Both the position numbers and the translations under genes were made by a program. DNA of 31,119 nt from a virus. The notes under the pieces were generated by a model, which worked only from the letters and a program-made list of their open reading frames with translations, searched no databases and was not told where the DNA came from. Every line of letters starts with the position of its first letter. Position 1 is the first letter of the stretch. Below are positions 5,131 through 29,600 of this stretch, piece by piece. The stretch covers positions 1 to 31,119 of the IMG/VR virus record IMGVR_UViG_3300005294_000062; one strand, 5' to 3'.

Positions 5131-6318
5131 TTATTGCACCTCGCGTATGATGCGTGGGCGGATGATATCGCTAATGTCCTTGATAACTGGACGGGAGAGG
5201 GCTTGTTGATACACTTCCTCCCACTTATAAGTATAATTGTTGATGTTTCTTGTGTCAAATACCCATTGCTTGAGGTTAGCGGCTTTCTTGGCACGCATGG
5301 CTGGGTCAAGCGCCAGGGCTTTGAGGGTTTCGTACCACTGTACGTCGCCACGTACCTTCCAGCACCCCTCGGTGGGTACTTCGCCGTATGTGGCCCAGTC
5401 GGTGCAAACGAAGGCGCTCCCACCAATAACGGCGTCGTAGGCTTTGATGAGAGATTTGCTTTCGTTGAATTGGTTCATCTCCACAGGGGCGATGAGAATG
5501 TCAGGGTTGAGCCACTTGATAGCTTGCCAGTAGACGCTGTAGTGGCAAGGTTGGATGTAGAAAGCGCGGTTAGCATGGGGGTCGGTGGAGTTGGGCATCC
5601 ACTGGGCGGCCCACGGCGGCGTACAACCAAGGAAAAAGAGGCGAAGCAAAGGTCTGCCTTCCTTACCATCCATCTCTCCCATTAATTGGGTGAGGGGTTG
5701 CTCGACCTGTGCTAAGTCACCTAAGTGCCCATAACCGCCACAGAACATCAACCTCACAGCTTTGTCATCGCTGCGGCGAGGGTCGTGGGGGTAGTGAGTC
5801 CAATCACCAGGGTTGCAGTAGTTGGGGAGGACGCTGAAGTTGCGACTTTCAGTCTTTAGCACACCCTCGATCTGAGGGGTAGAGATGGTGCAGGCGTCGG
5901 CGCTGCGTAGGTGCATCAAAAGGGCGCGACGGGCTTGCGCTGTGCGGGTGTAGTTCTTGTAAGCAGTGTTGTAGGAAGGGACGTTGAAAGGGTCATCGTC
6001 GATATCAACAATGATAGGGAGTTCTTTATCGTACTTCTCCAGGGCCATGTTGCGGATGGCGGCGGCGGTGGCGACGTGCGCTATCGTTGTAGTGTAACCC
6101 ATATGCACAACATCGTAGTCGGCGGCGTAGTGGTAGAGCCACTCGTCAACCGGCTTACCCAACAAGCCCGCGAGGTCATTGAAAAAGTCCGTATCGCCTT
6201 TGAGGCACATCACGTTGTGACCGGCGCGCTTGAGGGCGTCCATTGGTAAGAAGTGGCGGTAGTACCCCACCCCGCCACCTTGGGTGTGGATTGCAAGTAT
6301 TTTTAGCTTATCGCTCAT
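5131..6318 (-). CDS. GT-B fold glycosyltransferase, 395 aa
   Basis: The predicted role is transfer of a sugar from a nucleotide-sugar donor. The N-terminal Rossmann domain begins KILAIHTQGGGVGYYRHFLP, the glycine-rich acceptor-side loop common in GT4-like enzymes. VDIDDDPF lies near residue 125. The C-terminal domain has LMFCGGYGHLGDL and then FNESKSLIKAYDAVIGG, which corresponds to the donor-binding region with its conserved acidic residue. I chose the ATG at 6318 over an in-frame start 63 bases upstream because it begins directly at the fold and gives an 11-base overlap with the deacetylase gene. It is the last gene of the sugar cassette. Substrate is unknown. Confidence 0.8.
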   Translation of the reverse strand: MSDKLKILAIHTQGGGVGYYRHFLPMDALKRAGHNVMCLKGDTDFFNDLAGLLGKPVDEWLYHYAADYDVVHMGYTTTIAHVATAAAIRNMALEKYDKELPIIVDIDDDPFNVPSYNTAYKNYTRTAQARRALLMHLRSADACTISTPQIEGVLKTESRNFSVLPNYCNPGDWTHYPHDPRRSDDKAVRLMFCGGYGHLGDLAQVEQPLTQLMGEMDGKEGRPLLRLFFLGCTPPWAAQWMPNSTDPHANRAFYIQPCHYSVYWQAIKWLNPDILIAPVEMNQFNESKSLIKAYDAVIGGSAFVCTDWATYGEVPTEGCWKVRGDVQWYETLKALALDPAMRAKKAANLKQWVFDTRNINNYTYKWEEVYQQALSRPVIKDISDIIRPRIIREVQ

Positions 6319-8402: not shown

Positions 8403-9292
8403 TCTTCATCTTCCAAGATGCGCTTAAAGACCTTTTCGTACTCGCGGGCAGTAGCTTCAACCTGAGGTAGGATGGTGTAATTTGCCACGCCGTGCTTGAA
8501 AGCATTGAAGTTGAACTTCATGAACTTCAGTTGCTCCGCAAGCTCGGTAGCACTGCCATCAAAAAATAAACCATTGATATGGTCTTTGATCACCATAGGC
8601 ATCATGCCTACGCGCGTGCTGATAACGGGCCTGCCGCACAACAACGCCTCTTGTGGAGGTAGAGGGCCGCCGTCATTAAACCCCGCCACGACGTAACAAC
8701 TGATCTGGCTATAGAAGTTGAGTATATCTTCGTCGGGCTTATATCCTTCTTCTTCATTCCTCGTATTACGATCCATACCAACACACTTCACACCAGCTAA
8801 CTTACACGCCTCCTCGATGATGTGGAAGCGCTTGCCGCTGCTGTCACACCCCAAATAACCTACCGCGAACTCCTCGGGGAAAGGCATTTTGTGGAAGCGT
8901 GAGTGGTCGAAGGCGTAAGGGATGATCTTGCAGTTGGTGATGTTAAAATGTCCAAGTTGGCGCGCAGGGTGGGGTTCGGGGACGATGATCGCGCGGGGGC
9001 TGACGATACGCAATAAATTAGCATCCCGCTCCAGCGCGTGCTCCGCAATATGGTGTACACCCACTGTAAACGGGACTTCGATAGCACGAGCGAAAAATTG
9101 GATATTTGCGAAGTAGTTGAAATGCACTAAATCGTACTTATCCATTGATTTGTCGAATGATGGATCGAGGTCGATCTGGCGCATGGTGAGGTAGTCAACC
9201 TCGTGGCCCATGTCGCGTAGGGCGTTGGCGATGGGGAAGGAGATGTGATGCACTCCTCCGCCAAACCAGGTGTTGATGAATGCTAACTTCAT
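8399..9292 (-). CDS. GT-B fold (GT4-like) glycosyltransferase, 297 aa
   Basis: The protein opens with KLAFINTWFGGGVHHISFP, the glycine-rich loop of the first Rossmann domain. It has FAVGYLGCDSSGKRF at the start of the second domain, and the C-terminal donor site FNDGGPLPPQEALLCGRPVI. The last resembles the GT4 EX7E region, with one clear Glu. The ATG at 9292 is preferred over an in-frame ATG 12 bases upstream because GGAGG sits 5 bases before it and its ATGA overlaps the stop of the preceding gene. At 297 residues it is a compact GT-B enzyme. The target sugar is not predictable. Confidence 0.82.
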   Translation of the reverse strand: MKLAFINTWFGGGVHHISFPIANALRDMGHEVDYLTMRQIDLDPSFDKSMDKYDLVHFNYFANIQFFARAIEVPFTVGVHHIAEHALERDANLLRIVSPRAIIVPEPHPARQLGHFNITNCKIIPYAFDHSRFHKMPFPEEFAVGYLGCDSSGKRFHIIEEACKLAGVKCVGMDRNTRNEEEGYKPDEDILNFYSQISCYVVAGFNDGGPLPPQEALLCGRPVISTRVGMMPMVIKDHINGLFFDGSATELAEQLKFMKFNFNAFKHGVANYTILPQVEATAREYEKVFKRILEDEE

Positions 9293-10020: not shown

Positions 10021-10847
10021 AGCACACTCTTCTTTTGGGGCTCTTCGGTGGCAGCCCTTGTCAGTTGCACATTATCACCGTGCCAGTGGTAGATTTGCAC
10101 TACCGCATCCACAGCCTTCCCCCTCAGCCCCGCAAAGTGAGCACCCCGCGTTATCAACTCCCAATCAGCAAACCTCCTCATCTCCTCATTCCACAAACGT
10201 CCCGTAGCGACTTGCAAGCGCCACAATGCCCCCCTGGCGATCATGAAGTCGGATGTATCGACGAAGTTGTACATCGGGCCGTGGGCAAGCATTTGCACTG
10301 CTTCGTTGGTCCACTCAATCAACGGTGTCTCGCGTTCAGCGAGGGTGACTTCTTGCCCGCCAGGTAATTTGACAGTACTATCGCACTCACCGTCAACAAC
10401 GTACTTACGCCTACCGTACGTAAAATCAGGCCACACCACACCCTCAATCATCGCATCGTAAAGAACTTGGAGATGTTGAGGCGTCCACTCGTTATCATAA
10501 TCAAGAAAGGAAATATACTCCCCCTTACTTTGATGTACAATAGCGGTGTTCTTGGGGTAACATTGGTAGCCAGAGGCTTCATCCGTTCCAAAAAAGGTAA
10601 GGTGAGGACGGGTGCCACTGGCTACAACAAAATTATCATCTTCATCACTAAAGCCCTTCACAACCTCCACGATGGCGTCGTCAGGCTTGCCATCGCACAC
10701 CACGACCACTTCCCAACGCAGGTCGGGGTTGAGCTGTTGTGCCGCAATGCTGTCGAGGGCACGCTTCAAAAGTCTAGGGGTTTTGGGATGGTTGTGGCAA
10801 TTGACGATAGCTGAGATGTGCGGATATTTCTCATTCAAACTTAACAC
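10017..10847 (-). CDS. Family 2 glycosyltransferase, 276 aa
   Basis: This is the clearest GT2 enzyme of the set. PHISAIVNCHNHPKTPRLLK (from residue 9) is the classical first strand with its helix. WEVVVVCDGKPDD is the second, YISFLDYDNEW (residues 111-121) holds the DxD metal site, and MRRFADWELITRGA lies where the ED catalytic motif is usually found. The start is GTG, preceded by a GGAGGA site inside the end of the upstream gene, with a TAGTG overlap. It is the most promoter-proximal of the seven sugar genes. Confidence 0.85.
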   Translation of the reverse strand: MLSLNEKYPHISAIVNCHNHPKTPRLLKRALDSIAAQQLNPDLRWEVVVVCDGKPDDAIVEVVKGFSDEDDNFVVASGTRPHLTFFGTDEASGYQCYPKNTAIVHQSKGEYISFLDYDNEWTPQHLQVLYDAMIEGVVWPDFTYGRRKYVVDGECDSTVKLPGGQEVTLAERETPLIEWTNEAVQMLAHGPMYNFVDTSDFMIARGALWRLQVATGRLWNEEMRRFADWELITRGAHFAGLRGKAVDAVVQIYHWHGDNVQLTRAATEEPQKKSVL

Positions 10848-11275
10848 TATCTCCTCCTCAGCTCAAGTAGTTGCTTAACGTCAATATCTTCAACATCTAT
10901 TATACCATCATTTGCTAAAATTTCAAGTGCGTTAATGACGCCGCGCGCAGGCCTTACCTTGGGTACCTCAATACCGTTGACTTTAACGATGTCGCCCCCC
11001 GCCCATCCAAATAGGGGTACTTCACCTTCCAACCATGCAACGTTCACCACAACACTATCACGGCCCCAATCAAGCCAATACTCGTGGGCGGTATTCGTCC
11101 TGCCTTTGCGTAAAGGTTGATTGTAATCCATCACTGTGCAAACATCAGGGAGTGAGTTGACGGGGCCAGCAAAGCGCACGGCGGTGTGGGGGAGGGCAGC
11201 ACGCTTAACTAGGTGGGCGAAGTCGCTCCAAATAAATGAGCCTTGATAACGATATAAGTTAGGCAGTGGATACAT
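10847..11275 (-). CDS. Unknown protein, 142 aa
   Basis: No family is recognised. The sequence is Trp/Tyr-rich at the start (YRYQGSFIWSDFAHLVK) and has DYNQPLRKGRTNTAHEYWLDWGRD in the middle. It ends with two acidic, probably helical turns (ILANDGIIDVEDIDVKQLLE) and a RRR terminus. No signal peptide or membrane segment is seen. It overlaps both neighbours by one base (TAATG and TAGTG), so it belongs to the glycosylation operon and may be a small partner of that cassette or a virion protein. Confidence 0.65.
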   Translation of the reverse strand: MYPLPNLYRYQGSFIWSDFAHLVKRAALPHTAVRFAGPVNSLPDVCTVMDYNQPLRKGRTNTAHEYWLDWGRDSVVVNVAWLEGEVPLFGWAGGDIVKVNGIEVPKVRPARGVINALEILANDGIIDVEDIDVKQLLELRRR

Positions 11276-11524: not shown

Positions 11525-11595
11525 TGGCACACCCCTAAGGAATCGAACCCTACTTGGCGGTTTTGGAGACCGCTTAACGCCCAGCGTCGGGGTGC
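11525..11595 (-). tRNA. tRNA-Trp (anticodon CCA)
   Basis: The acceptor stem GCACCCC pairs with GGGGTGT, then G73 and an encoded CCA. The anticodon arm is GCGGT-CTCCAAA-ACCGC and the T-loop is TTCGATT. The D-arm is unusually small: a 4-bp stem closed by a 3-base TGG loop (ACGC-TGG-GCGT). This is the last tRNA of the array. Confidence 0.88.
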
Positions 11596-11608
11596 GCGCG
11601 CAACAACC

Positions 11609-11974
11609 TTACTTCGATAGAAATCTTTGCTTAAACTGCCAAAGAGCGTCAATTAGTAGTTCAACTTCTTGGCGGGTTTTTAGGGGGATGGGGGAATAGT
11701 AGGCGTAGCTGCTAGCCGTATGTTGTGGGCTTATATACTGTATGGTCAAGTTCTTTGCCCTGTCACCAATGATATCCCCATCCGAACGTTTAACAAATAA
11801 ATCACGCCCCTTTATAATAATCTGGCCATCCTTGACCTCAATCACCCTCTCTTTCACTTGATCTACTATATCAACTGTAAGATCTTTGTAGATGGGAGGA
11901 GGGGTAGCGGGAACATTAGCCTCAACCACTTCCCCCTCCTTCGACACCAACTTAACTTTCTTTTTCTTAAACAT
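11609..11974 (-). CDS. Unknown protein, 121 aa, between tRNA genes
   Basis: The ATG is preceded by AAGGAGGAGATGAGGG, a strong ribosome binding site. The N-terminus is very basic (MFKKKKVKLVSKEG), followed by a proline-containing linker (PATPPPIYKDL) and a beta-like stretch with KDGQIIIKGRDLFVKRSDGD. The C-terminal helix (KTRQEVELLIDALWQFKQRF) resembles the end of many phage accessory proteins. Function is unknown. It ends 13 bases before tRNA-Trp, so it is embedded in the tRNA transcript. Confidence 0.65.
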   Translation of the reverse strand: MFKKKKVKLVSKEGEVVEANVPATPPPIYKDLTVDIVDQVKERVIEVKDGQIIIKGRDLFVKRSDGDIIGDRAKNLTIQYISPQHTASSYAYYSPIPLKTRQEVELLIDALWQFKQRFLSK

Positions 11975-11995
11975 CCCTCATCTCCTCCTTTTATG

Positions 11996-12071
11996 TGGTA
12001 CCCCCTAGAGGAATCGAACCTCTATTCCAGCGTTAGAAGCGCTGTGCCTTAGTCCGTTAGACGAAGGGGGC
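11996..12071 (-). tRNA. tRNA-Arg (anticodon UCU)
   Basis: The acceptor GCCCCCT pairs with AGGGGGT, A73 and an encoded CCA follow. The anticodon arm is CAGCG-CTTCTAA-CGCTG and the T-arm AGAGG-TTCGATT-CCTCT. It reads AGA and, by wobble, AGG. Confidence 0.93.
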
Positions 12072-12074
12072 ATT

Positions 12075-12149
12075 TGGGGCGATGGGCGAGAATCGAACTC
12101 GCGTGAAGCGGTTCACAGCCGCCGACTTTACCACTAAGCTACCAACGCC
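12075..12149 (-). tRNA. tRNA-His (anticodon GUG)
   Basis: The anticodon arm has loop CTGTGAA. The extra G at position -1 faces C73, the hallmark of bacterial tRNA-His, followed by an encoded CCA. The acceptor stem GCGTTGG/CCATCGC has one T-T mismatch at the fourth pair. The T-arm is GCGAG-TTCGATT-CTCGC. Confidence 0.93.
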
Positions 12150-12152
12150 ATG

Positions 12153-12221
12153 TGGAGCTACGCGACGTAATTGAAACGTCCTGACCAGCGTTACGAGTGC
12201 CGGTCGCCGCCTGGGCGCAGC
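12153..12221 (-). tRNA. tRNA-Thr (anticodon CGU), overlaps a coding sequence
   Basis: The acceptor GCTGCGC pairs with GCGTAGC (one G-U), then T73 and CCA. The T-arm is perfect, GACGT-TTCAATT-ACGTC. The anticodon loop is CTCGTAA on a stem with an A-C mismatch at its base next to the loop. Only 12 bases separate the acceptor and anticodon stems, so the D-arm is nearly absent. The 5' 31 bases overlap the end of the methyltransferase gene, whose TAA stop lies in the anticodon loop. Less certain than its neighbours. Confidence 0.7.
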
Positions 12222-12709
12222 CAGATCGCTAACAACGCTCCATATTTCCCGCTATGAAACATGGGGAGTTCTACTACTTCAAATCCAAAATTTTCAAGCT
12301 CTTCCTTCGTCCACCCACTGAGGTGCTCCTGGTAGCTATTACCACTGTGGGCAGCTTGGGCTACAAAACCTGATGGTGTAAAGATCAAGATCTTGTTGAA
12401 ACTTCGCTGCAAAGATCTCAACAACGCCTCGCCATCGGCTTTGTTGACATGCTCCAACGTATCGATCAACATCGCTACATCACACTCACTGTCACCAACC
12501 GCCTCCCACCAAGAGCGCATATCCATCCTGTGCGCTTCGATGTCAGGTGATGCGTTACTAACTGCATCGGGGTAAATGTCGAGGCCAATCTTGCGCGCCT
12601 GGGGATAAGCGTTAGCGAGCATATCCCCTGGCCCAAAACCGAGGTCAACAATCACCCTCGCCCCCCAAGTATTCACCCTCACCCACTCCTGTATCGCGCT
12701 CCTGCTCAA
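12191..12709 (-). CDS. Class I SAM-dependent methyltransferase, 172 aa
   Basis: The protein has the Rossmann-type methyltransferase core. VIVDLGFGPGDML (residues 19-31) is the SAM-binding motif I. IGLDIYPDA carries the acidic residue at the end of strand 2, DVAMLIDTLEHV (77-88) is motif IV/post-IV, and KILIFTPSGF is strand 5. The substrate is unknown; the ubiE/bioC-like layout suits a small molecule, sugar or other acceptor. The longest frame begins at TTG only 5 bases after tRNA-Arg(CCU). In-frame GTG codons at 12679 and 12673 come just before the fold and could be the true start. The end overlaps tRNA-Thr(CGU). Confidence 0.8.
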   Translation of the reverse strand: MSRSAIQEWVRVNTWGARVIVDLGFGPGDMLANAYPQARKIGLDIYPDAVSNASPDIEAHRMDMRSWWEAVGDSECDVAMLIDTLEHVNKADGEALLRSLQRSFNKILIFTPSGFVAQAAHSGNSYQEHLSGWTKEELENFGFEVVELPMFHSGKYGALLAIWLRPGGDRHS

Positions 12710-12714
12710 TCTAT

Positions 12715-12789
12715 TGGTCCCCCTGCAAGGAATTGAACCTTGATCTCAAGTTTAGGAAACTAGTGCGTTGTCCATTACACCACAAGGGG
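12715..12789 (-). tRNA. tRNA-Arg (anticodon CCU)
   Basis: The acceptor CCCCTTG pairs with CAGGGGG; A73 and an encoded CCA follow. The anticodon arm CTAGT-TTCCTAA-ACTTG has one T-T mismatch at the second pair. The T-arm is CAAGG-TTCAATT-CCTTG. It reads AGG. Confidence 0.88.
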
Positions 12790-12799
12790 ATGTCGGTGA

Positions 12800-12873
12800 T
12801 GGTGCTCCTACAGGGAATCGAACCCTGACTTCATCCTTACCAAAGATGCAGTCTACCATTAGCTTACAGGAGC
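12800..12873 (-). tRNA. tRNA-Thr (anticodon GGU)
   Basis: The acceptor GCTCCTG pairs with TAGGAGC; A73 and CCA follow. The anticodon loop is TTGGTAA on a CATCT/GGATG stem. The T-arm is CAGGG-TTCGATT-CCCTG. It reads ACC and ACU. Confidence 0.92.
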
Positions 12874-12885
12874 GTCAAGTTTTGG

Positions 12886-12959
12886 TGGAGCCACACAGTG
12901 GATTCGAACCACTACACCCTCCTTACAAGGGAGGTGCGCTACCGTTACGCGAGTGCGGC
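12886..12959 (-). tRNA. tRNA-Thr (anticodon UGU)
   Basis: The acceptor GCCGCAC pairs with GTGTGGC; T73 follows. The anticodon arm is CCTCC-CTTGTAA-GGAGG and the T-arm AGTGG-TTCGAAT-CCACT. The genome encodes CCACCA after T73; the second CCA lies at 12883-12885. Confidence 0.93.
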
Positions 12960-12964
12960 ACCGG

Positions 12965-13026
12965 CGGGGGAGCTAATCCAGGATTTATGCGACTTCTTTA
13001 GGCCGCCACCTTGAATAACTCCCCCG
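12965..13026 (-). ncRNA. Structured non-tRNA RNA element between tRNA genes
   Basis: The minus strand can form a stem of about 14 bp starting CGGGGGAG and closing CTCCCCCG. It contains a T-G wobble that would be a C-A mismatch on the other strand, so the minus-strand RNA is favoured. Inside it, GCGGC can pair with GTCGC around an 8-base loop, and AATC with GATT. It has no T-loop motif and no CCA, so it is not a normal tRNA. It may be a decayed tRNA, a processing signal or a small RNA. Confidence 0.5.
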
Positions 13027-13035
13027 TTTAGTTTG

Positions 13036-13107
13036 TGGTGAGCCCACAGTGAGTCGAACACTGCCTTTGGGGTTAAAAGCCCCAAGCCAGCCCGGCTGGA
13101 CAGGCCC
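13036..13107 (-). tRNA. tRNA-Lys (anticodon UUU)
   Basis: The acceptor GGGCCTG pairs with TGGGCTC using three G-U pairs; A73 and CCA follow. The anticodon arm is TGGGG-CTTTTAA-CCCCA and the T-arm CAGTG-TTCGACT-CACTG. The D-arm is a tight hairpin, CAGC-CGG-GCTG, with a 3-base loop. Confidence 0.9.
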
Positions 13108-13112
13108 ACATT

Positions 13113-13649
13113 TTAAGCAATCCTCTTAGCCCCACGCCTATAAGCCCTACGTTCGCGCCCACTGAGGTGCTTGTTCTTCACCAGGTGGTCAGCGGCGTGT
13201 GAACTTACCCACGCGTTAGGTTTAAGCACAGCCCTAAACCCTTGCCCCATAATCATCCCCGCAATTTGCCTCACAAAATTATTAGATGCATATTGCGAGT
13301 CAGGGTTAGCATCTGCATGAACTTCAATCTGATCTTTGCCAAACGGCACCACACCCTCAAGCGCCATCGCAGTTTCGAGGCTGTACCATGTTTCATGACT
13401 TAACTTCTCCCACAACGTCAAGTCGGTCCGTGATGCTCGTGTACGGCAGTAGAACATCCTCCCGCCCTTACGCTCCTTGTAAACCACTACCACCGTTACG
13501 AAGTCAACGCCCCGGCCAATGCGCTGCGCATCAGTGCCAATCCTGACCATCTGATCGCTGTCAGTGACGAGTGAGGCCACCATCGCTTGGATATCGTCAA
13601 TCGGCTTGGCATTACCGTCGTACCATTGACGATCTATGATGGTGTCCAT
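13113..13649 (-). CDS. YkuK/DUF458-like RNase H-fold protein, 178 aa
   Basis: The sequence follows the YkuK/DUF458 pattern. RIGTDAQRIG (from residue 36) contains an Asp at the first RNase H-fold position, and VDFVTVVVVYKERKGGRMFY is a beta hairpin. LWEKLSHETWYSLETAMAL forms the central helix, DQIEVHADANPDSQYASN carries two more acidic residues, and IAGMIMGQGFRAVLKPNAWV is near the end. YkuK proteins are predicted RNase H-like, with no firmly established substrate. The C-terminus is basic (KNKHLSGRERRAYRRGAKR), suggesting nucleic acid binding. It has its own strong site (AAGGAGAAGGTAATG), follows tRNA-Lys(CUU) and ends 5 bases before tRNA-Lys(UUU), so a role in tRNA or RNA handling is plausible but unproved. 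Confidence 0.8.
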   Translation of the reverse strand: MDTIIDRQWYDGNAKPIDDIQAMVASLVTDSDQMVRIGTDAQRIGRGVDFVTVVVVYKERKGGRMFYCRTRASRTDLTLWEKLSHETWYSLETAMALEGVVPFGKDQIEVHADANPDSQYASNNFVRQIAGMIMGQGFRAVLKPNAWVSSHAADHLVKNKHLSGRERRAYRRGAKRIA

Positions 13650-13662
13650 TACCTTCTCCTTG

Positions 13663-13737
13663 TGGTGAACCCCTAGGGAATCGAACCCTATGCGAGTTGG
13701 TTAAGAGCCAACTGCCTCTCCATCCGGCCCGAGGTCC
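13663..13737 (-). tRNA. tRNA-Lys (anticodon CUU)
   Basis: The acceptor GGACCTC pairs with GGGGTTC using two G-U pairs; A73 and CCA follow. The anticodon arm is GTTGG-CTCTTAA-CCAAC and the T-arm TAGGG-TTCGATT-CCCTA. Position 8 is G rather than the usual T. It reads AAG. Confidence 0.92.
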
Positions 13738-13741
13738 ACGT

Positions 13742-13819
13742 TGGTCGCCACTACTGGATTCGAACCAGTATAATCTACACTCTCAATGTAGCACGTCTAC
13801 CTGTTTGCGTCAAGTGGCG
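13742..13819 (-). tRNA. tRNA-Leu (anticodon GAG), short variable arm
   Basis: The acceptor CGCCACT pairs fully with AGTGGCG; A73 and CCA follow. The anticodon arm is CTACA-TTGAGAG-TGTAG. The D-arm has the leucine-type CAAACAGGTAGACG sequence, but the variable region is only ATTAT, where a bacterial tRNA-Leu should have a long arm. Confidence 0.85.
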
Positions 13820-13833
13820 ACAGCTAAATTTTG

Positions 13834-13909
13834 TGGTACACCACCGAGGAATCGAACCCCGCTCAAGCACTTTGTAAGAATGCCGCCTGCCCAGTCGGAC
13901 CTGTGGTGC
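13834..13909 (-). tRNA. tRNA-Val (anticodon UAC)
   Basis: The acceptor GCACCAC pairs with GTGGTGT; A73 and CCA follow. The anticodon arm is GCATT-CTTACAA-AGTGC and the T-arm CGGGG-TTCGATT-CCTCG. It is the only valine tRNA in the set and could read all four GUN codons if U34 is suitably modified. Confidence 0.92.
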
Positions 13910-13912
13910 ATG

Positions 13913-14002
13913 TGGTACTCGCCCAGGGTATCGATCCCTGCCGTGAACGCTAATCTGGCGCAAGGGCTTATAAGGCCCTCCTGCACACCTGTGCTGGCGA
14001 GC
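13913..14002 (-). tRNA. tRNA with UAU anticodon (Ile by anticodon) and long variable arm
   Basis: The acceptor GCTCGCC pairs with GGCGAGT; A73 and CCA follow. The anticodon arm is perfect, AGGGC-CTTATAA-GCCCT. About 22 bases separate it from the T-stem and can form CGC-CAGATTA-GCG. That is class II architecture, normally restricted to Leu, Ser and Tyr in bacteria. The T-loop is ATCGATA instead of TTCGATT. The D-arm is compact, GCAC-AGGT-GTGC. The amino acid actually carried is uncertain. Confidence 0.8.
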
Positions 14003-14005
14003 GTG

Positions 14006-14073
14006 TGGAAGCCCTGGTGGGAGTCGAACCCACGTTTGAGGTTTTGCAGACCTCACTATTGCCGTACAGGGCC
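14006..14073 (-). tRNA. tRNA-Cys (anticodon GCA)
   Basis: The acceptor GGCCCTG pairs with CAGGGCT; T73 and CCA follow. The anticodon arm is GAGGT-CTGCAAA-ACCTC and the T-arm GTGGG-TTCGACT-CCCAC. Only 12 bases lie between the acceptor and anticodon stems, leaving at most a 2-bp D-stem. Confidence 0.88.
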
Positions 14074-14078
14074 TTGTG

Positions 14079-14154
14079 TGGCGCTACCTCAAGGAGTCGA
14101 ACCTTGCTATCATCGCTTAACAGGCGGTTGCCTACACCGGTTTGCTTAGGTAGC
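14079..14154 (-). tRNA. tRNA-Asn (anticodon GUU)
   Basis: The acceptor GCTACCT pairs fully with AGGTAGC; the discriminator is G73, as usual for Asn, then CCA. The anticodon loop is CTGTTAA on a stem with one C-A mismatch. The T-arm is CAAGG-TTCGACT-CCTTG. Confidence 0.92.
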
Positions 14155-14168
14155 ACGTTATCAATATG

Positions 14169-14247
14169 TGGTAGCCAGGGTGGGGATCGAACCCACATAC
14201 ACCGCATTTTAAGTGCGGTAGGTCTACCTAATTGCCGTCACCTGGCC
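14169..14247 (-). tRNA. tRNA-Leu (anticodon UAA), short variable arm
   Basis: The acceptor GGCCAGG pairs with CCTGGCT; A73 and CCA follow. The anticodon arm is CCGCA-CTTAAAA-TGCGG and the T-arm GTGGG-TTCGATC-CCCAC. The D-arm is leucine-like (GGCAATTAGGTAGACC), but the variable region is only TGTAT, so the class II arm is missing. Confidence 0.87.
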
Positions 14248-14251
14248 ACGT

Positions 14252-14340
14252 TGGCAGAAGGTGGAGGAATCGAACCCCTACGATTCATCACCGTACCACG
14301 GTTTTCAAGACCGTTCGACCGCCGTTGGTCGGCACCTTCT
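14252..14340 (-). tRNA. tRNA-Ser (anticodon UGA)
   Basis: The acceptor AGAAGGT pairs fully with ACCTTCT; G73 is the expected serine discriminator, then CCA. The anticodon arm is ACGGT-CTTGAAA-ACCGT, followed by a long class II variable arm (GGTACGGTGATGAATCGT). The T-loop is TTCGATT. Confidence 0.93.
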
Positions 14341-14466
14341 ACTTACAAACAAAATGTTATGCCTACGATCTGCGCCCCAAATATACCACTCTTGGCCGTT
14401 GGTGTCAACAAAATACTTGCCCGTGACACCTGTACAGACGGGGTAAGGGATGGGGAAGTTAACGTG
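14341..14466 (-). pseudogene. Possible remnant of a small gene between two serine tRNAs
   Basis: This 126-base gap is much longer than most spacers in the array. One minus-strand frame reads protein-like, PYPVCTGVTGKYFVDTNGQE followed by WYIWGADRRHNILFV. It has no credible start: the nearest start codon, a GTG at 14505, lies inside tRNA-Ser(GCU), and the stop at 14305 lies inside tRNA-Ser(UGA). It could be a fragment of a displaced gene, or chance. Confidence 0.3.
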
Positions 14467-14468
14467 GG

Positions 14469-14552
14469 TGGCGGAGAGCCGCAGAATCGAACTGCTACCT
14501 TTCACAGTAGTCCCATTTAGCAGACGGGATGAAGCCCAGCTTCAGACTCTCC
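14469..14552 (-). tRNA. tRNA-Ser (anticodon GCU)
   Basis: The acceptor GGAGAGT pairs with GCTCTCC; G73 and CCA follow. The anticodon arm is CCCGT-CTGCTAA-ATGGG. A class II variable arm forms CTAC-TGTGAAAG-GTAG. The D-arm is a 5-bp hairpin with a 3-base loop, GAAGC-TGG-GCTTC. The T-loop is TTCGATT with one mismatch in its stem. Confidence 0.9.
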
Positions 14553-14566
14553 CCAAATTGTCTTAG

Positions 14567-14640
14567 TGGTCGCGCACGTCGGAATCGAACCGCTCCCCAT
14601 GCTCCCAAGGCACGTGTGCATCCACTACACCTCGCGCGCG
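14567..14640 (-). tRNA. tRNA-Pro (anticodon UGG)
   Basis: The acceptor CGCGCGC pairs with GTGCGCG; A73 and CCA follow. The anticodon arm is CGTGC-CTTGGGA-GCATG. The T-loop is TTCGATT but the T-stem AGCGG/CCGAC has two outer mismatches. It is the only proline tRNA. Confidence 0.87.
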
Positions 14641-14650
14641 TTAAATTTTG

Positions 14651-14724
14651 TGGCAGGGCGTGTAGGAATCGAACCCACGTAGCAAGATCCAAAGTCTTGC
14701 GTTCTACCATTGAACTAACGCCCA
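14651..14724 (-). tRNA. tRNA-Gln (anticodon UUG)
   Basis: The acceptor TGGGCGT pairs with ACGCCCT except for an open first pair (T-T), which suits the weak 1-72 pair favoured by glutaminyl-tRNA synthetase. G73 and CCA follow. The anticodon arm is CAAGA-CTTTGGA-TCTTG and the T-arm GTGGG-TTCGATT-CCTAC. Confidence 0.92.
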
Positions 14725-14727
14725 ATG

Positions 14728-14801
14728 TGGTCCTCGATAAACGACTTGAACGCTTACTAAGCGGTGATCGGCCGCTCGTGCTGCCATTACACCAATCGAG
14801 G
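14728..14801 (-). tRNA. tRNA-Ile (anticodon GAU), C at position 33
   Basis: The acceptor CCTCGAT pairs fully with ATCGAGG; A73 and CCA follow. The T-arm is AAGCG-TTCAAGT-CGTTT. The anticodon arm is AGCGG-CCGATCA-CCGCT, which places GAU at 34-36 but with C33 instead of the nearly universal U33 and C37 instead of a purine. Either an unusual isoleucine tRNA or a decaying gene. Its 5' end abuts the next tRNA's CCA with no spacer. Confidence 0.75.
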
Positions 14802-14875
14802 TGGAGCTTCCAGCGAGACTCGAACTCGCATCGTGACGTTGGCAACGTCGCCGTCTACCTTTGACATATGGAAGC
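14802..14875 (-). tRNA. tRNA-Gly (anticodon GCC)
   Basis: The acceptor GCTTCCA pairs fully with TGGAAGC; T73, normal for glycine, and CCA follow. The anticodon loop is TTGCCAA and the T-arm GCGAG-TTCGAGT-CTCGC. Its CCA directly touches the 5' end of tRNA-Ile(GAU). Confidence 0.92.
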
Positions 14876-14880
14876 ACTAA

Positions 14881-15129
14881 TTACTTCGAAGCAACATCTT
14901 CACATGAAGCAACTGCTTTACAGCCAGTGTGTACAATACAAATCCACCCTCTACTTGTTGCCATGCTGCTGAAGGTGGTAGTGCAGACAATCCACTCGCC
15001 GCCTTGGCAACTCCCACTCTCTTGGATGTGAGCAAACCCGCAGTAGCCATTTGTAATACTCTCACCCCACGCCGTGGTTGCTCCAACAATAGCCACTACC
15101 AACGCTATCGCTACAACTAACTTCCTCAC
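14881..15129 (-). CDS. Secreted cysteine-rich small protein, 82 aa
   Basis: The start is GTG with AAGGAGG 5 bases upstream. The first 24 residues form a clear signal peptide: basic start MRKL, then a hydrophobic core VVAIALVVAIVGATTAWG, with probable cleavage after AWG. The mature part of about 60 residues has six cysteines (NGYCGF, GSCQGG, IVCTTT, ICIVHTGC, SCED), so it is probably disulphide-bonded outside the cytoplasm. No family is recognised. It is embedded between tRNA-Gln(CUG) and tRNA-Gly(GCC). An exported effect on the host envelope or on superinfection is possible but speculative. Confidence 0.75.
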   Translation of the reverse strand: MRKLVVAIALVVAIVGATTAWGESITNGYCGFAHIQESGSCQGGEWIVCTTTFSSMATSRGWICIVHTGCKAVASCEDVASK

Positions 15130-15143
15130 TTCAACCTCCTTGG

Positions 15144-15217
15144 TGGCAAGGGCGCAAGGATTCGAACCTTGGCTAACTGGGTCAGAGCCAGTTATGCTAC
15201 CGTTACATCACACCCTT
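15144..15217 (-). tRNA. tRNA-Gln (anticodon CUG)
   Basis: The acceptor AAGGGTG pairs with CGCCCTT, with a weak A1-U72 pair as favoured for Gln; G73 follows. The anticodon arm is ACTGG-CTCTGAC-CCAGT and the T-arm CAAGG-TTCGAAT-CCTTG. The 3' end encodes CCACCA (second copy at 15141-15143). Confidence 0.92.
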
Positions 15218-15220
15218 GTG

Positions 15221-15310
15221 TGGTGGCGTGCTAGGGAATCGAACCCTAACGCTCCCTTGTGGAAGGCTTGGGTTACAGCCAAGCCCACATCCATAGTGGT
15301 CTAACACGCC
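15221..15310 (-). tRNA. tRNA-Tyr (anticodon GUA)
   Basis: The acceptor GGCGTGT pairs with GCACGCC; A73 and CCA follow. The anticodon arm is CTTGG-CTGTAAC-CCAAG. A long class II variable arm follows, as expected for bacterial tRNA-Tyr. The T-arm is TAGGG-TTCGATT-CCCTA. Confidence 0.94.
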
Positions 15311-15378
15311 TTTTTAATCTTCGTGACACCAACACCCACATCCCCCTACCTCACACCTATCATGGTCACAAGGTGGGG

Positions 15379-15456
15379 TGGTACGCCTGGTAGGACTCGA
15401 ACCCACAACTTCAACGTTCGTAGCGTTGCGTGATATTTCCATTTCACCACAGGCGC
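15379..15456 (-). tRNA. tRNA-Arg (anticodon ACG)
   Basis: The acceptor GCGCCTG pairs with CAGGCGT; A73 and CCA follow. The anticodon arm is CAACG-CTACGAA-CGTTG and the T-arm GTGGG-TTCGAGT-CCTAC. If A34 is deaminated to inosine by the host, it reads CGU, CGC and CGA. Confidence 0.93.
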
Positions 15457-15463
15457 ATCTAGG

Positions 15464-15539
15464 TGGCGGTACCGAAGAGACTTGAACTCTCACCTTTCAC
15501 AGTGACAGTGTGATGCTCTACCAATTAAGCTACGGTACC
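15464..15539 (-). tRNA. tRNA-Asp (anticodon GUC)
   Basis: The acceptor GGTACCG pairs fully with CGGTACC; G73, typical for Asp, and CCA follow. The anticodon arm is TCACA-CTGTCAC-TGTGA and the T-arm GAGAG-TTCAAGT-CTCTT. Confidence 0.94.
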
Positions 15540-15545
15540 GTGATT

Positions 15546-16094
15546 TTAAGCAATACGCATCTTGTCTTTAGCAGTCTTCTTAGCCTTAGGTTTGGTTTCA
15601 ATGCGCTTGATCTTACCAAACTTCACCGTGCCTTTAGGACTTTCTTTACCGCCGTCGGGCTCGATCTTCTTTTTCACAGCAACTCCTTTATATTCCATAA
15701 ATTCTAGTAAAACTTTTGTAGCCTTCTCCCTTCTACGCTTATTTAACCCTCCCCATAAAAGGGCTATTAATGCTTGTACTTTCTCAAATCCGCCGACATA
15801 CCACACATACATCTTTTTGTAACCGGCCTTACGATCAGAGTCTACTCTTCTATTACCAAAACCAACGATTCTTTCAAAGCGATCTACACTGTCCTTGTCT
15901 GACATTTTAAGAGCGGCTCTAGGATACGGATATTCTTTGCCCCTCTTTAAACAACGTTGTGTAAAAATCGACCCCTCTCCATCAAAAAGTCCCGCAGCCC
16001 AAAAAATCTCTTCTCTAAAAGTGGTGGGAGCAGAAGGACTTGAACCTTCAAACCCTTTTGGGGCAACAGTTTCTAAGACTGCCGTGTCTGCCAT
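15546..16094 (-). CDS. LAGLIDADG homing endonuclease-like protein, 182 aa
   Basis: FREEIFWAAGLFDGEGSI (residues 26-43 from the chosen start) is a single LAGLIDADG motif, with the catalytic acidic residue in the FDGEG part. The following fold (PYPRAALKMSDKDSVDRFER, then MYVWYVGGFEKVQALIALLW) matches one domain of this family; such proteins act as dimers and cut specific DNA sites. The C-terminus is very basic (KPKAKKTAKDKMRIA). No ATG, GTG or TTG lies between the motif and the tRNA-Leu(UAG) gene, so the nearest ATG is at 16094, inside the tRNA. A rare start such as ATT near the motif is the alternative. Confidence 0.75.
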   Translation of the reverse strand: MADTAVLETVAPKGFEGSSPSAPTTFREEIFWAAGLFDGEGSIFTQRCLKRGKEYPYPRAALKMSDKDSVDRFERIVGFGNRRVDSDRKAGYKKMYVWYVGGFEKVQALIALLWGGLNKRRREKATKVLLEFMEYKGVAVKKKIEPDGGKESPKGTVKFGKIKRIETKPKAKKTAKDKMRIA

Positions 16095-16108
16095 TTCACC
16101 ATACTCCC
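16022..16108 (-). tRNA. tRNA-Leu (anticodon UAG), normal class II
   Basis: The acceptor GGGAGTA pairs with TGCTCCC; A73 and CCA follow. The anticodon arm is GCAGT-CTTAGAA-ACTGT, followed by a long variable arm (GCCCCAAAAGGGT). The T-arm is GAAGG-TTCAAGT-CCTTC. This is the only leucine tRNA here with the expected variable arm. The likely start of the LAGLIDADG gene lies in its D-arm. Confidence 0.94.
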
Positions 16109-16128
16109 ATTCTAACACATCATCGCGG

Positions 16129-16205
16129 TGGTCGCCAAGGTGAGACTCGAACTCACAAGAGCTAAGGTTTGAGCTTAGCATGTCTGCCAATTGCATCACT
16201 TGGCG
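16129..16205 (-). tRNA. tRNA-Leu (anticodon CAA), short variable arm
   Basis: The acceptor CGCCAAG pairs fully with CTTGGCG; A73 and CCA follow. The anticodon arm is CTAAG-CTCAAAC-CTTAG and the T-arm GTGAG-TTCGAGT-CTCAC. The D-arm has the leucine-type GCAATTGGCAGAC, but at most about seven bases (GCTCTT region) fill the variable position. Confidence 0.88.
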
Positions 16206-16216
16206 ATCTAAACTTG

Positions 16217-16292
16217 TGGTCGGCAAGTACGAACTCGAATCGTACCCTCCACATCTTCAGTGTGGCGTGCTACCTACTAACACCACTTGCCG
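16217..16292 (-). tRNA. tRNA-Phe (anticodon GAA)
   Basis: The acceptor CGGCAAG pairs fully with CTTGCCG; A73 and CCA follow. The anticodon arm is CCACA-CTGAAGA-TGTGG and the T-arm TACGA-TTCGAGT-TCGTA. Its first 23 bases form the last codons and stop of the HNH gene. Confidence 0.93.
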
Positions 16293-16611
16293 ATCTTCTA
16301 GCATATGTTCTGCGTCTATGGCAGTTAGAACAAACTACCTCACAGTTTCTCAATTCTTTCTTTATTCTATCGAACCCCCAACCAACATTCACTATGCTAG
16401 CCGGGTTAATCGTTTTAGCTCCAATATGATCGAAGTCTAAAACTATCGGATCTTTAATACTGCAATCCGCACATCCCGCGTTATGCTTGACTCTTCTAAG
16501 AAATTTAATAATCCTAAGCTTACGTTTCTTTGCTCTACACTTATAATCATCGGCATTACGTTCATAATGCGTCTTACCGTAAATCTCATATTGTGATCCA
16601 CCTGTAACCAT
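16270..16611 (-). CDS. HNH homing endonuclease-like protein, 113 aa
   Basis: The protein has the HNH nuclease layout. GCADCSIKDP supplies the first CxxC (Cys 47/50), VLDFDHIGAKT carries the D-H of the first HNH strand (Asp 61, His 62), and CEVVCSNCHRRRTY supplies the second zinc pair (Cys 94/97) and the final His. The N-terminus is basic, with KCRAKKRKLRIIKFLRRVK for DNA contact. The ATG follows AGGAG at 5 bases. The last eight codons and the TAG stop lie inside tRNA-Phe. It is probably a free-standing mobile endonuclease settled between tRNA genes; an intron-encoded form is not indicated. Confidence 0.85.
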   Translation of the reverse strand: MVTGGSQYEIYGKTHYERNADDYKCRAKKRKLRIIKFLRRVKHNAGCADCSIKDPIVLDFDHIGAKTINPASIVNVGWGFDRIKKELRNCEVVCSNCHRRRTYARRSASGVSR

Positions 16612-16621
16612 AGCGCTCCTG

Positions 16622-16695
16622 TGGAGCGGGCAGAGAGAATCGAACTCTCATCACAAGGGTGGAAGCCTAGTGCTCTACCATTGAGCTATGCCCGC
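16622..16695 (-). tRNA. tRNA-Gly (anticodon UCC)
   Basis: The acceptor GCGGGCA pairs fully with TGCCCGC; T73 and CCA follow. The anticodon arm CTAGG-CTTCCAC-CCTTG has one T-T mismatch. The T-arm is GAGAG-TTCGATT-CTCTC. Confidence 0.92.
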
Positions 16696-16728
16696 TTACC
16701 AGTTACGTCTTGACCGCTCAAATCTTTG

Positions 16729-16802
16729 TGGTGGAAAAGGAGAGAATCGAACTCTCATCGCTCGGGTGCAAACCGAGGGTAATCCCGTTATACTACTTCC
16801 CC
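16729..16802 (-). tRNA. tRNA-Ala (anticodon UGC)
   Basis: The acceptor GGGGAAG pairs with CTTTTCC and contains G3-U70, the main identity element for alanine. A73 and CCA follow. The anticodon arm is CTCGG-TTTGCAC-CCGAG and the T-arm GAGAG-TTCGATT-CTCTC. Its first ten bases overlap the end of the 61-aa gene. Confidence 0.94.
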
Positions 16803-16978
16803 ACTGTCAAATATTGCCTATCTCTAGTATCTTTCCAGCTCTTGCGAGGTCTGTACGTGGCATTCTCGTTGCGGTGATACTTGCACCAGCCACAACGTAT
16901 CTTACCCGTGTGCTCCAGCTCTCTTTTGTACAACCTATTATACAACGTTCTGTTGGAGGTCGTAGTTAGCTCTCTCAC
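16793..16978 (-). CDS. Small CxxC protein of a common phage type, 61 aa
   Basis: I place the start at a GTG at 16978 with AGAGG 5 bases upstream; a longer frame runs back through tRNA-Glu and is rejected. The protein reads ELTTTSNRTLYNRLYKRELE, then GKIRCGWCKYHRNENATYRP, then a basic KSWKDTRD tail. The CGWCKYHRNEN segment with flanking basic residues resembles small phage proteins of unknown function that may bind zinc or RNA. Its TAG stop is the U8-A9-G10 of tRNA-Ala, so the gene and tRNA overlap by ten bases. Confidence 0.65.
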   Translation of the reverse strand: MRELTTTSNRTLYNRLYKRELEHTGKIRCGWCKYHRNENATYRPRKSWKDTRDRQYLTVGK

Positions 16979-17003
16979 GTCAACCTCTCGTGCGTGCGTG
17001 CGT

Positions 17004-17078
17004 TGGTAGCGCGCCGGGGAGTCGAACCCCGCATCTCCACGTTGAAAGCGTGGCAACTCACCGCATGTATCGCGCGCC
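17004..17078 (-). tRNA. tRNA-Glu (anticodon UUC)
   Basis: The acceptor GGCGCGC pairs with GCGCGCT; A73 and CCA follow. The anticodon arm is CCACG-CTTTCAA-CGTGG and the T-arm CGGGG-TTCGACT-CCCCG. It reads GAA and GAG. Confidence 0.93.
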
Positions 17079-17108
17079 ACTCCTAATTAGTTCATCTATC
17101 TGCAATGT

Positions 17109-17184
17109 TGGTAGCGGCCGTGGGAATCAAACCCACCATGTCACGGTTATGAGCCGTGCGTGTCCACCAGTTCACCTGGCCGCA
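17109..17184 (-). tRNA. tRNA with CAU anticodon (Met, type unresolved)
   Basis: This is the first tRNA after the array promoter. The stem GCGGCC pairs with GGCCGC, and the first acceptor pair is an open T-T. A73 and CCA follow. The anticodon arm is CACGG-CTCATAA-CCGTG. The open 1-72 pair recalls initiator tRNA, but the three G-C pairs of the initiator anticodon stem are not present. The T-loop is TTTGATT, with U in place of the conserved C56. Elongator Met is the simplest reading; a lysidine-type Ile tRNA cannot be excluded. Confidence 0.85.
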
Positions 17185-17193
17185 TCGTGTGTG

Positions 17194-17220
17194 CAGGGGG
17201 TAATATACCACTACCCCCTG
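17194..17220. promoter_or_regulatory. Inverted repeat around the -10 of the tRNA promoter (candidate operator)
   Basis: CAGGGGG and CCCCCTG are perfect 7-base arms separated by 13 bases that contain the -10 TATATT. There is no T-run, so a terminator is unlikely. A repressor site or a transcript-start hairpin are both possible. Confidence 0.5.
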
Positions 17221-17230
17221 CTCGTGTCAA
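17202..17230 (-). promoter_or_regulatory. Promoter of the tRNA array
   Basis: TTGACA (17230-17225) and TATATT (17207-17202) are separated by 17 bp and read leftward into tRNA-Met. The TGA stop of the 92-aa gene lies inside the -35. An inverted repeat CAGGGGG/CCCCCTG (17194-17220) encloses the -10 and could bind a regulator. Confidence 0.85.
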
Positions 17231-17505
17231 GTACCTGGCTCAGGAACAACGGCGTCGATGGCCTTTGCTTCATCCACGATGGTCTGAAGTTCAGCCAAAA
17301 GCTCCGTTTCCTCAGCAGCGCTCATCCCGCCACCGTCTTGCGCATCCAACACGCGCTGGATGTCGGCAAGGATTTTTGCGTTCGTAGCACGCAATTCAAT
17401 GAACGCATCCCTAAATTCCTGTGCTGTAGCCATGAGCCACCTCTCAAGCGCTTTGACAGCGCAAAAAACATCTGTGGTTGTTGCTTTGCGGGTGAACCAA
17501 CGCAT
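17227..17505 (-). CDS. Small helical protein, 92 aa (or 68 aa from an internal start)
   Basis: The main part reads ATAQEFRDAFIELRATNAKI, then QRVLDAQDGGGMSAAEETEL, then a helix and the tail AVVPEPGT. This helix, Gly-rich turn with GMSAAEE, helix layout is common in small phage proteins of unknown role. Two starts are possible. The ATG at 17505 has GGAGG 9 bases upstream. The ATG at 17433 has AGAGG 6 bases upstream and removes a basic, less helix-like leader. It has its own promoter (17541-17569), just beyond the capsid-unit terminator, and its stop sits in the next promoter. Confidence 0.7.
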   Translation of the reverse strand: MRWFTRKATTTDVFCAVKALERWLMATAQEFRDAFIELRATNAKILADIQRVLDAQDGGGMSAAEETELLAELQTIVDEAKAIDAVVPEPGT

Positions 17506-17540: not shown

Positions 17541-17569
17541 AGTATAACACTATGCATCGGGGGTGTCAA
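17541..17569 (-). promoter_or_regulatory. Promoter for the 92-aa gene
   Basis: TTGACA (17569-17564), a 17-bp spacer and TATACT (17546-17541) read leftward. It lies directly after the intrinsic terminator at 17577-17615, so it opens a new transcription unit. Confidence 0.87.
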
Positions 17570-17576
17570 GTGCTAC

Positions 17577-17615
17577 AAAAAAAAAGAAGGGGTGACAAGT
17601 TGCCCTGCCACCCCT
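17577..17615 (-). terminator. Intrinsic terminator after the capsid unit
   Basis: The minus strand forms a 10-bp stem (AGGGGTGGCA paired with TGTCACCCCT, one G-U) with an 8-base loop. It is followed by TC and a run of nine or more T residues. It lies about 30 bases after the stop of the 50-aa gene and is the clearest terminator in the window. Confidence 0.92.
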
Positions 17616-28498: not shown

Positions 28499-29171
28499 TC
28501 CAAAGGTAGCTAAGGGTGCGCTGCGCGGAGTGTTGACGGCGATCTTGCATCTAGCGCCCTTCACGCTGTCAGGAAGGAATGTATGCCCATGGGCGAGCGC
28601 TGGATGCGCTGCGGCGTGTCTTAACACCGCTGGGCGTGGTGCTATGTCAAAGATTCAGGAAGCACGCGTGAGAAAGACGCGCGCGTTCTATAGCGATAGG
28701 GAGGGATTTGTTACCGGGGTAATGGACGATATTTCACGTCTAGTGCGTAAGGCTGACGGAAGGGTGCAAGTTGCGGTAAGGTTGAATGGGACTAGTGATT
28801 TGCCGTGGTTTGAATTGGCGCCGCGCATATTTCACACATTCGAAGATGTGCAATTCTACGATTACACAAAGAGTTATAGACGGATGTGCGAGAGTTTGGG
28901 TAATGCGTGGCCAATGAATTACCATCTAACTTTCTCGCGCAGTGAGACGAACGAGCGCGAATGCTTGGATGTGTTGGCGCGCGGCGGAAATGTTGCGGTC
29001 GTGTTTGATACGCGCAAGGGCGCGCCATTGCCAGAGGAATGGAATGGGTTTCCGGTGATTGACGGCGATGTGGATGATGTAAGGTTTCATGATGGAAGAG
29101 GTGTTGTGGTAGGTCTGCGGGCGAAAGGCAAGGCAAAGAAAGATAACTCTGGGTTCGTGGTGAAGGGGTGA
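28476..29171 (+). CDS. GP88-like protein (phage gene 88 family), 231 aa
   Basis: The N-terminus MQLLTLSNPKVAKG, then NVCPWASAGCAAACLNTAGR, then EARVRKTRAFYSDREGF, matches the pattern of phage gene-88 proteins, in which a serine-rich start is followed by a CxxxxxxCxxxC cluster. The central part has VQVAVRLNGTSDLPWFELAP and VQFYDYTKSYRRM, and the end has FPVIDGDVDDVRFHDGRGVV. Its biochemical role is not established. I chose the ATG at 28476 (AAGGACAATG) because a frame further upstream duplicates the finger gene. Confidence 0.8.
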   Translation: MQLLTLSNPKVAKGALRGVLTAILHLAPFTLSGRNVCPWASAGCAAACLNTAGRGAMSKIQEARVRKTRAFYSDREGFVTGVMDDISRLVRKADGRVQVAVRLNGTSDLPWFELAPRIFHTFEDVQFYDYTKSYRRMCESLGNAWPMNYHLTFSRSETNERECLDVLARGGNVAVVFDTRKGAPLPEEWNGFPVIDGDVDDVRFHDGRGVVVGLRAKGKAKKDNSGFVVKG

Positions 29172-29174
29172 GAT

Positions 29175-29399
29175 ATGATTAGGTTGCATGTTTCGAAAGA
29201 GCGTTTCTTGTCGGCTGATAAGCATGAGGATCCGAGAGTACCTACTCCGGCATGCGGTGCAACGGATGGAGTGCATGTAATCAAGTTCGGATATGGTGAT
29301 GGATTGGTGAGGTATCCGGCGCTTAGCCCAGAGTTTCATTGTTCGGATTGTGTGCGTATCAAGCGCGACGAAGCGTACGGCATAAAGGGAAGGGGGTAG
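29175..29399 (+). CDS. Unknown protein with a CxxC, 74 aa
   Basis: The ATG lies 3 bases after the GP88-like stop. The sequence begins MIRLHVSKERFLSADKHED, has PACGATDGVHVIKFGYGDG in the middle and HCSDCVRIKRDEAYG near the end. The later CSDC with the earlier Cys and nearby His residues could bind zinc. No family is recognised. Confidence 0.6.
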   Translation: MIRLHVSKERFLSADKHEDPRVPTPACGATDGVHVIKFGYGDGLVRYPALSPEFHCSDCVRIKRDEAYGIKGRG

Positions 29400-29402
29400 A
29401 AC

Positions 29403-29600
29403 ATGTCTAAACATTGGTCGAATTACCTTATGTCACCTTTGGATGACAGCGACAAAGCCGATGTGAGGGAGGAGCTAGCTGCATTGCGCGCTGAGTATGC
29501 CGCGATGGGGTTTGATAAGAGGAAGGGTTTGGGCAGGGGTTATGATGTGTGGCACGCTATCAGGGCGCTTGAGAGGTTTGAGGAGGAAGCGAATAGCTGA
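29403..29600 (+). CDS. Unknown small protein, 65 aa
   Basis: The ATG follows GGGGG close to the previous stop. The protein has SPLDDSDKADVREELAALRA, then YAAMGFDKRKGLGRGYDVWH, and ends with an acidic helix RALERFEEEANS. It is helical and soluble, with no recognised domain. It ends just before the DUF932 promoter. Confidence 0.6.
   Translation: MSKHWSNYLMSPLDDSDKADVREELAALRAEYAAMGFDKRKGLGRGYDVWHAIRALERFEEEANS

Follow-up and report, generated by a model that had tools for sequence, protein, structure and literature searches.

In the 2019 survey of phage transfer RNA (tRNA) clusters by Morgado and Vicente, 228 genomes of 72–617 kb were found to carry clusters of 15–37 genes, eight of which hold all 20 isotypes, and about 4% of the cluster-bearing genomes were those of podoviruses (PMC6409571). 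Here, we describe a tRNA gene array on the minus strand of the IMG/VR record IMGVR_UViG_3300005294_000062, located at positions 11525–17184; the entire record of 31,119 bases was analysed and is referred to below as the window. Like the surveyed clusters, which have at least 15 tRNA genes and at least two per kb, the array is large and dense, with 32 genes (30 of them firm) in 5660 bp, i.e. 5.65 (approx. 5.7) per kb. In contrast to them, it occurs in a probable genome fragment of 31 kb with a relative (G002) of approximately 46.0 kb, the 72–617 kb being an observed range and not a definition, and it forms a clear insertion in comparison with relatives that are nearly free of tRNA genes (PMC6409571). 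Full-isotype arrays have been described in phages before; this one differs in belonging to a small-genome lineage and in being a clear insertion.

Three other described systems are comparable. Array units of mycobacterial phages and plasmids likewise comprise 26–32 tRNA genes for 19–20 amino acids and an HNH gene and share altered D arms and variable arms with the array described here, but reside in a different vehicle (PMC5966550, PMC12803027). Phage T5 also has a tRNA-rich block with a strong promoter, the function of which was shown by experiment (PMC11555353); T5 is unrelated to the window phage in core genes, whereas the T5-family phage PSTCR5 (Demerecviridae) shares a short-loop type of tRNA-Leu(UAA). 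Xanthomonas phage XacN1 encodes tRNAs for all 20 amino acids as well, but is a jumbo myovirus of 385 kb with tRNA-processing genes, none of which were recognised in the window (PMC5852040). As to the roles of such genes, phage tRNAs driven by strong promoters can rescue phages from defences that deplete tRNAs, as tRNA-Tyr of T5 and SP15 does against retron-Eco7 (PMC11555353); Septu is defeated when a phage tRNA-Tyr is amplified by the homing endonuclease SegB (PMC13096335), and phage tRNAs have been proposed to escape anticodon nucleases (PMC10264068).

Scanning of the whole window with ARAGORN detected 28 tRNA genes, every one on the minus strand and within 11525–17184, and none in the rest of the window. 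Two genes missed by ARAGORN or added to its list were recovered above the cut-off with the Rfam model RF00005: Leu-UAA, not called by ARAGORN (match 14172–14247, 45.7 bits), and Cys-GCA (match 14009–14073, 42.9 bits). A cloverleaf scan, which combined a 7-bp acceptor stem, an anticodon arm with U33, a T arm with C56/A58 and CCA, gave 29 matches on the array strand and no match on the complementary strand of the window, and contributed another two genes, a UAU tRNA (13913–14002) and a Thr-CGU candidate (12153–12221). Dinucleotide shuffles produced on average 0.35 matches per 62 kb, or about 0.03 expected in the array stretch, and these counts rule out chance or misread tRNAs. The total is 32 tRNA-shaped genes, 30 of them firm (ARAGORN or Rfam) and two, the UAU tRNA and Thr-CGU, weaker; the D arm is missing from the latter, which also extends across the stop codon of a methyltransferase open reading frame (ORF). 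A first-pass annotation, made from the sequence alone, had proposed 32 minus-strand genes, and this number holds with the above gradation. Matches to the Rfam tRNA-Sec model were found on the Ser, Tyr and Trp genes; being below the cut-off and on genes with ordinary anticodons, they were dismissed.

All 32 genes encode CCA at the 3' end, as had been annotated, and U33 and the T-loop bases C56 and A58 are present in all of them. The discriminator base is G73 solely in the Asp, Asn, Gln, Ser and Trp tRNAs, C73 in tRNA-His alone (accompanied by G at position –1), U73 in tRNAs for Gly, Cys and Thr only, and A73 in the remainder, conforming to bacterial charging rules across the whole array. Together with G3:U70 in tRNA-Ala and G–1:C73 in tRNA-His, these discriminators make the array genes look chargeable. 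Acceptor and T stems are fully paired in 29/32 genes each and anticodon stems in 27/32, while the D arm is the relaxed part of the molecule, with seven genes lacking a clear D stem and several loops of only 3–5 bases. The array has the cloverleaf, the CCA and the bacterial identity bases of a functional elongator set, with the D arm weak or truncated in several members. Three of the four Leu tRNAs (CAA, GAG and UAA) have short 5-nt variable loops and not the usual bacterial long arm; since the Leu-UAA of Providencia phage PSTCR5 (L184 2997–3074) is of the same short type, we consider this a phage trait and not an error.

In the 5' to 3' direction along the minus strand, and with support from both ARAGORN and Rfam unless stated otherwise, the array starts with tRNA-Met (CAU, 17109–17184), followed by tRNA-Glu (UUC, 17004–17078; ARAGORN), tRNA-Ala (UGC, 16729–16802), tRNA-Gly (UCC, 16622–16695), tRNA-Phe (GAA, 16217–16292), tRNA-Leu (CAA, 16129–16205), a second tRNA-Leu with a long variable arm (UAG, 16022–16108), tRNA-Asp (GUC, 15464–15539), tRNA-Arg (ACG, 15379–15456), tRNA-Tyr with a long variable arm (GUA, 15221–15310; ARAGORN) and tRNA-Gln (CUG, 15144–15217). 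The middle part consists of tRNA-Gly (GCC, 14802–14875), tRNA-Ile (GAU, 14728–14801; ARAGORN), tRNA-Gln (UUG, 14651–14724), tRNA-Pro (UGG, 14567–14640), two tRNA-Ser (GCU, 14469–14552, and UGA, 14252–14340; both ARAGORN), tRNA-Leu (UAA, 14169–14247; Rfam), tRNA-Asn (GUU, 14079–14154), tRNA-Cys (GCA, 14006–14073; Rfam), which is 68 nt long and almost devoid of a D arm, the UAU tRNA (cloverleaf scan), tRNA-Val (UAC, 13834–13909; ARAGORN), tRNA-Leu (GAG, 13742–13819) and tRNA-Lys (CUU, 13663–13737; ARAGORN). Further downstream are tRNA-Lys (UUU, 13036–13107; ARAGORN), tRNA-Thr (UGU, 12886–12959, and GGU, 12800–12873), tRNA-Arg (CCU, 12715–12789), the weak Thr-CGU candidate with its truncated D arm (cloverleaf scan only), tRNA-His (GUG, 12075–12148), tRNA-Arg (UCU, 11996–12071) and tRNA-Trp (CCA, 11525–11595; ARAGORN, which places the 5' end at 11597 instead of the true 11595).

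The anticodons span all 20 amino acids, no stop-codon anticodon occurs among the 32 tRNAs, and CGG is the single sense codon without an evident reader; the first-pass annotation had read all three points in the same way. An alternative code or suppressor tRNAs were rejected, given the lack of a stop anticodon and head-gene frames that the standard code leaves open. Among 6230 codons, CGG occurs 18 times, and it makes up 5% of the Arg codons, against 14% and 8% in the relatives G005 and G002, respectively. An avoidance of this codon is not convincing, since CGA is equally rare and CGG is still used. Decoding by tRNA-Arg(ACG) depends on inosine formation by the host. The only CAU tRNA combines an unpaired U1xU72, as in initiators, with U11:A24, as in elongators, and there is no separate pair of initiator and elongator Met tRNAs in the array. 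The UAU tRNA, with a long variable arm and an unusual T loop beginning with A, is supported by relatives in three other viral contigs (L258 1147–1238, L259 4616–4707 and L260 near 8772–8867); although the contigs are otherwise diverged, the 19-nt anticodon arm is identical in all of them, and motifs of the variable arm are shared as well. Two of the three contigs are nearly the same in sequence, and in both of them this relative is called tRNA-Ile(UAU) by ARAGORN, in the vicinity of tRNA-Arg(UCU), which fits the decoding of AUA.

TerL, the portal and the major head protein match phage families and identify the window as part of the genome of a double-stranded DNA tailed phage. The record is probably a fragment, and we infer a genome size near 50 kb. 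The phage was initially described as podovirus-like; its gene content (an SU10-type adaptor, a portal/head-tail adaptor match and partial synteny with Podoviridae ctQWt234) supports a probably short-tailed virion, but, the record being incomplete, does not prove it. Relatives with the same gene order share 40–50% identity in aligned core proteins. Among them, G002 has 46,085 bases with an exact 80-base end repeat, because of which its genome (about 46.0 kb) is apparently complete, and contains no tRNA genes by either ARAGORN or covariance search. G005 has one Trp-like tRNA (L102 17793–17865), without encoded CCA and far from the array site; this gene, which neither ARAGORN nor the fast Rfam scan picked up, was found by a genome covariance search. 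In G005 and L088, a single small gene separates the capsid gene from the homologue of the window gene 10847–11275, and the distance from the capsid stop to this homologue is about 240–265 bp, versus 6545 bp in the window. This difference identifies the array unit as a cassette present here and absent in these relatives, and its gain in the lineage of the window phage is the simpler reading. More broadly, one or two tRNA genes were seen at 3/52 capsid- or portal-bearing loci and an array at none of the 52, and a single tRNA at 1/19 terminase loci. The phage collection yielded no similar array by DNA, only single tRNA genes. No relative beyond 20–29% identity was present among named phage records, searching viral contigs with either the capsid or the PF04308 protein on its own revealed no close relative, and the portal had no relative in scans of bacterial genomes. 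The segment 5131–10847 of the window, between the capsid and tail genes, encodes glycosyltransferases and a GDP-mannose 4,6-dehydratase-like protein and is partly conserved in the relatives.

Upstream of the array, a strong intrinsic-terminator-like hairpin with a 12-bp stem, a U tract and the tail TCTTTTTTTT (17588–17615, minus strand) is located between the capsid genes and the array unit. It is followed on the same strand by two near-consensus sigma-70-type promoters, TTGACA-N17-TATACT (17541–17569), which precedes a 92-amino acid ORF, and TTGACA-N17-TATATT (17202–17230), which ends 17 bases before tRNA-Met, and a third such site, TTGACA-N17-TATATT, is internal (14380–14408). This arrangement resembles the strong promoter in front of tRNA genes that is an anti-defence feature of T5. 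A perfect 10-bp inverted repeat (17193–17221) overlaps the –10 region of the 17202–17230 promoter and may represent an operator or a leader hairpin. Seven sites of the form TTGACA-N16-18-TATA(C/T)T exist in the window (at 5230, 14380, 17202, 17541, 23463, 26125 and 27021), all on the minus strand, whereas none appeared in 100 shuffles. The array is not followed by a terminator-like site, which makes read-through into the genes beyond it probable. As the terminator-like hairpin and promoter-like sequences precede it, the array looks like a transcription unit of its own that reads on into downstream genes. It is therefore not simply a part of the head-tail operon, as first suggested; its placement in a small phage lineage otherwise without tRNA genes is unusual.

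Several protein-coding ORFs, all on the minus strand, are interspersed with or adjacent to the tRNA genes. The 92-amino acid ORF between the two upstream promoters (17227–17505) has no family match, and a small ORF (16811–16978) is placed inside the open frame 16793–17080. Two ORFs resemble homing endonucleases: an HNH type (16270–16611; PF01844, phrog_2255 with E 1.9e-19) and a LAGLIDADG-like one (15546–16020; phrog_5046 with E 5e-14, PADLOC HEase with E 3e-4, and the motif AAGLFDGEGSI seen by eye). Downstream of tRNA-Leu(UAG), the frame of the latter (15546–16108) lacks a start codon; it is open into that tRNA gene, within which its nearest in-frame ATG (approx. 16094) falls. An RNase H-like protein (13113–13649; PF04308 with E 2.2e-26, phrog_11311), without a solved-structure relative found by sequence, is encoded between the two Lys tRNA genes. 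The others are a class I S-adenosylmethionine (SAM) methyltransferase-like ORF (12191–12709; PF13489 with E 6.5e-7) and ORFs of 82 (14881–15129) and 121 amino acids (11609–11974) with no function assigned. Among the window proteins searched, there was no aminoacyl-tRNA synthetase, tRNA ligase or enzyme for CCA addition; a MetG match of the ORF 28926–29414 was weak (E 0.0047), far below the curated cut-off, and was not accepted as a synthetase.

On balance, we favour the explanation that the array is a discrete cassette in a small phage which supplements or replaces host tRNAs that become short during infection. The cassette would have been gained just downstream of the capsid gene, in a lineage whose relatives have almost no tRNA genes, and would be transcribed from its strong promoters by a host-type RNA polymerase, with host enzymes cutting, modifying and charging the products. 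For almost every codon, these tRNAs would take over from those of the host or add to them, allowing virion proteins to be made despite a tRNA shortage. Judging from published phages, such a shortage is a plausible driver; it could come about through anticodon nucleases, through further defences that cleave tRNAs, through host shut-off, or in a mismatched host. Homing endonuclease-type genes in the array probably help such segments to spread and vary. We suggest more tentatively that the promoter-driven, insertable array is broad enough to carry nearly all late protein synthesis in a genome of about 50 kb. Several observations weigh against the supply of tRNAs as the function. In about one third of the genes, among them Cys and Thr-CGU, the D arm is truncated or degenerate, and the tRNAs may function less well as a result; no gene for tRNA repair or cleavage of host tRNAs was identified; the tRNA-poor relatives, with core proteins about 40–50% identical, may infect other hosts; and terminase matches in bacterial genomes, mostly those of Alphaproteobacteria, are at about 20–32% too distant to identify the host. 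Furthermore, a self-sufficient complement would have a reader for each sense codon and both initiator and elongator Met tRNAs; with CGG lacking a clear reader and only one CAU tRNA, the array is near-complete but not host-independent, and host tRNAs remain necessary. The near-full, chargeable-looking set is real, but the near-independence from host tRNAs first envisaged overstates its reach, given the missing CGG reader and Met pair and the absence of the above tRNA enzymes from the window proteins searched.

It is also conceivable, though somewhat unlikely, that the array supplies codons used more by the phage than by its host, raising translation speed or widening the host range. Readers of the often-rare codons AUA, AGA/AGG and CUA are indeed encoded, and the idea has published support in XacN1 (PMC5852040). 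However, all 20 isotypes are encoded regardless of codon frequency, not a subset for rare codons, and CGG, which has no clear reader in the array, is infrequent yet used. Correlations of relative synonymous codon usage across the TerL, portal and capsid genes were 0.41 and 0.50 with two array-free relatives, compared with 0.54 between those two, so that the array is not accompanied by any clear special codon bias. Two points make codon compensation the less favoured account: no isotype is missing, and the core genes differ in codon usage only slightly more from those of the array-free relatives than the latter do from one another. Spread of the cassette by homing endonucleases as a mobile passenger, with many tRNAs decaying or neutral, would account for the HNH and LAGLIDADG-like ORFs, the truncated D arms and the absence of the cassette from relatives, and the D arms of M. 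avium arrays, which also hold an HNH gene, are altered as well (PMC12803027). Nevertheless, almost every gene has retained its discriminator, identity elements, CCA, anticodon arm and T arm, and the array is preceded by strong promoter-like sequences; such features would not be expected to survive neutral decay, making this scenario quite unlikely. The better preservation of anticodon arms than of D arms might point to decoys, i.e. tRNAs serving mainly as sacrificial substrates of host anticodon nucleases and not in translation, but the parts that charging requires and cleavage does not (acceptor stems, discriminators and CCA) are preserved just as well, and we regard decoys as highly improbable.

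Why phages carry tRNA genes is a long-standing question, and relatives with and without the cassette would allow a direct test of the cost and benefit of an array. If the genome is confirmed to be about 50 kb, the size floor for full-set arrays is likely to be lowered. Should the supply or replacement of host tRNAs by the cassette hold true, near-complete tRNA replacement would not be limited to phages above 70 kb and could be gained as a module.

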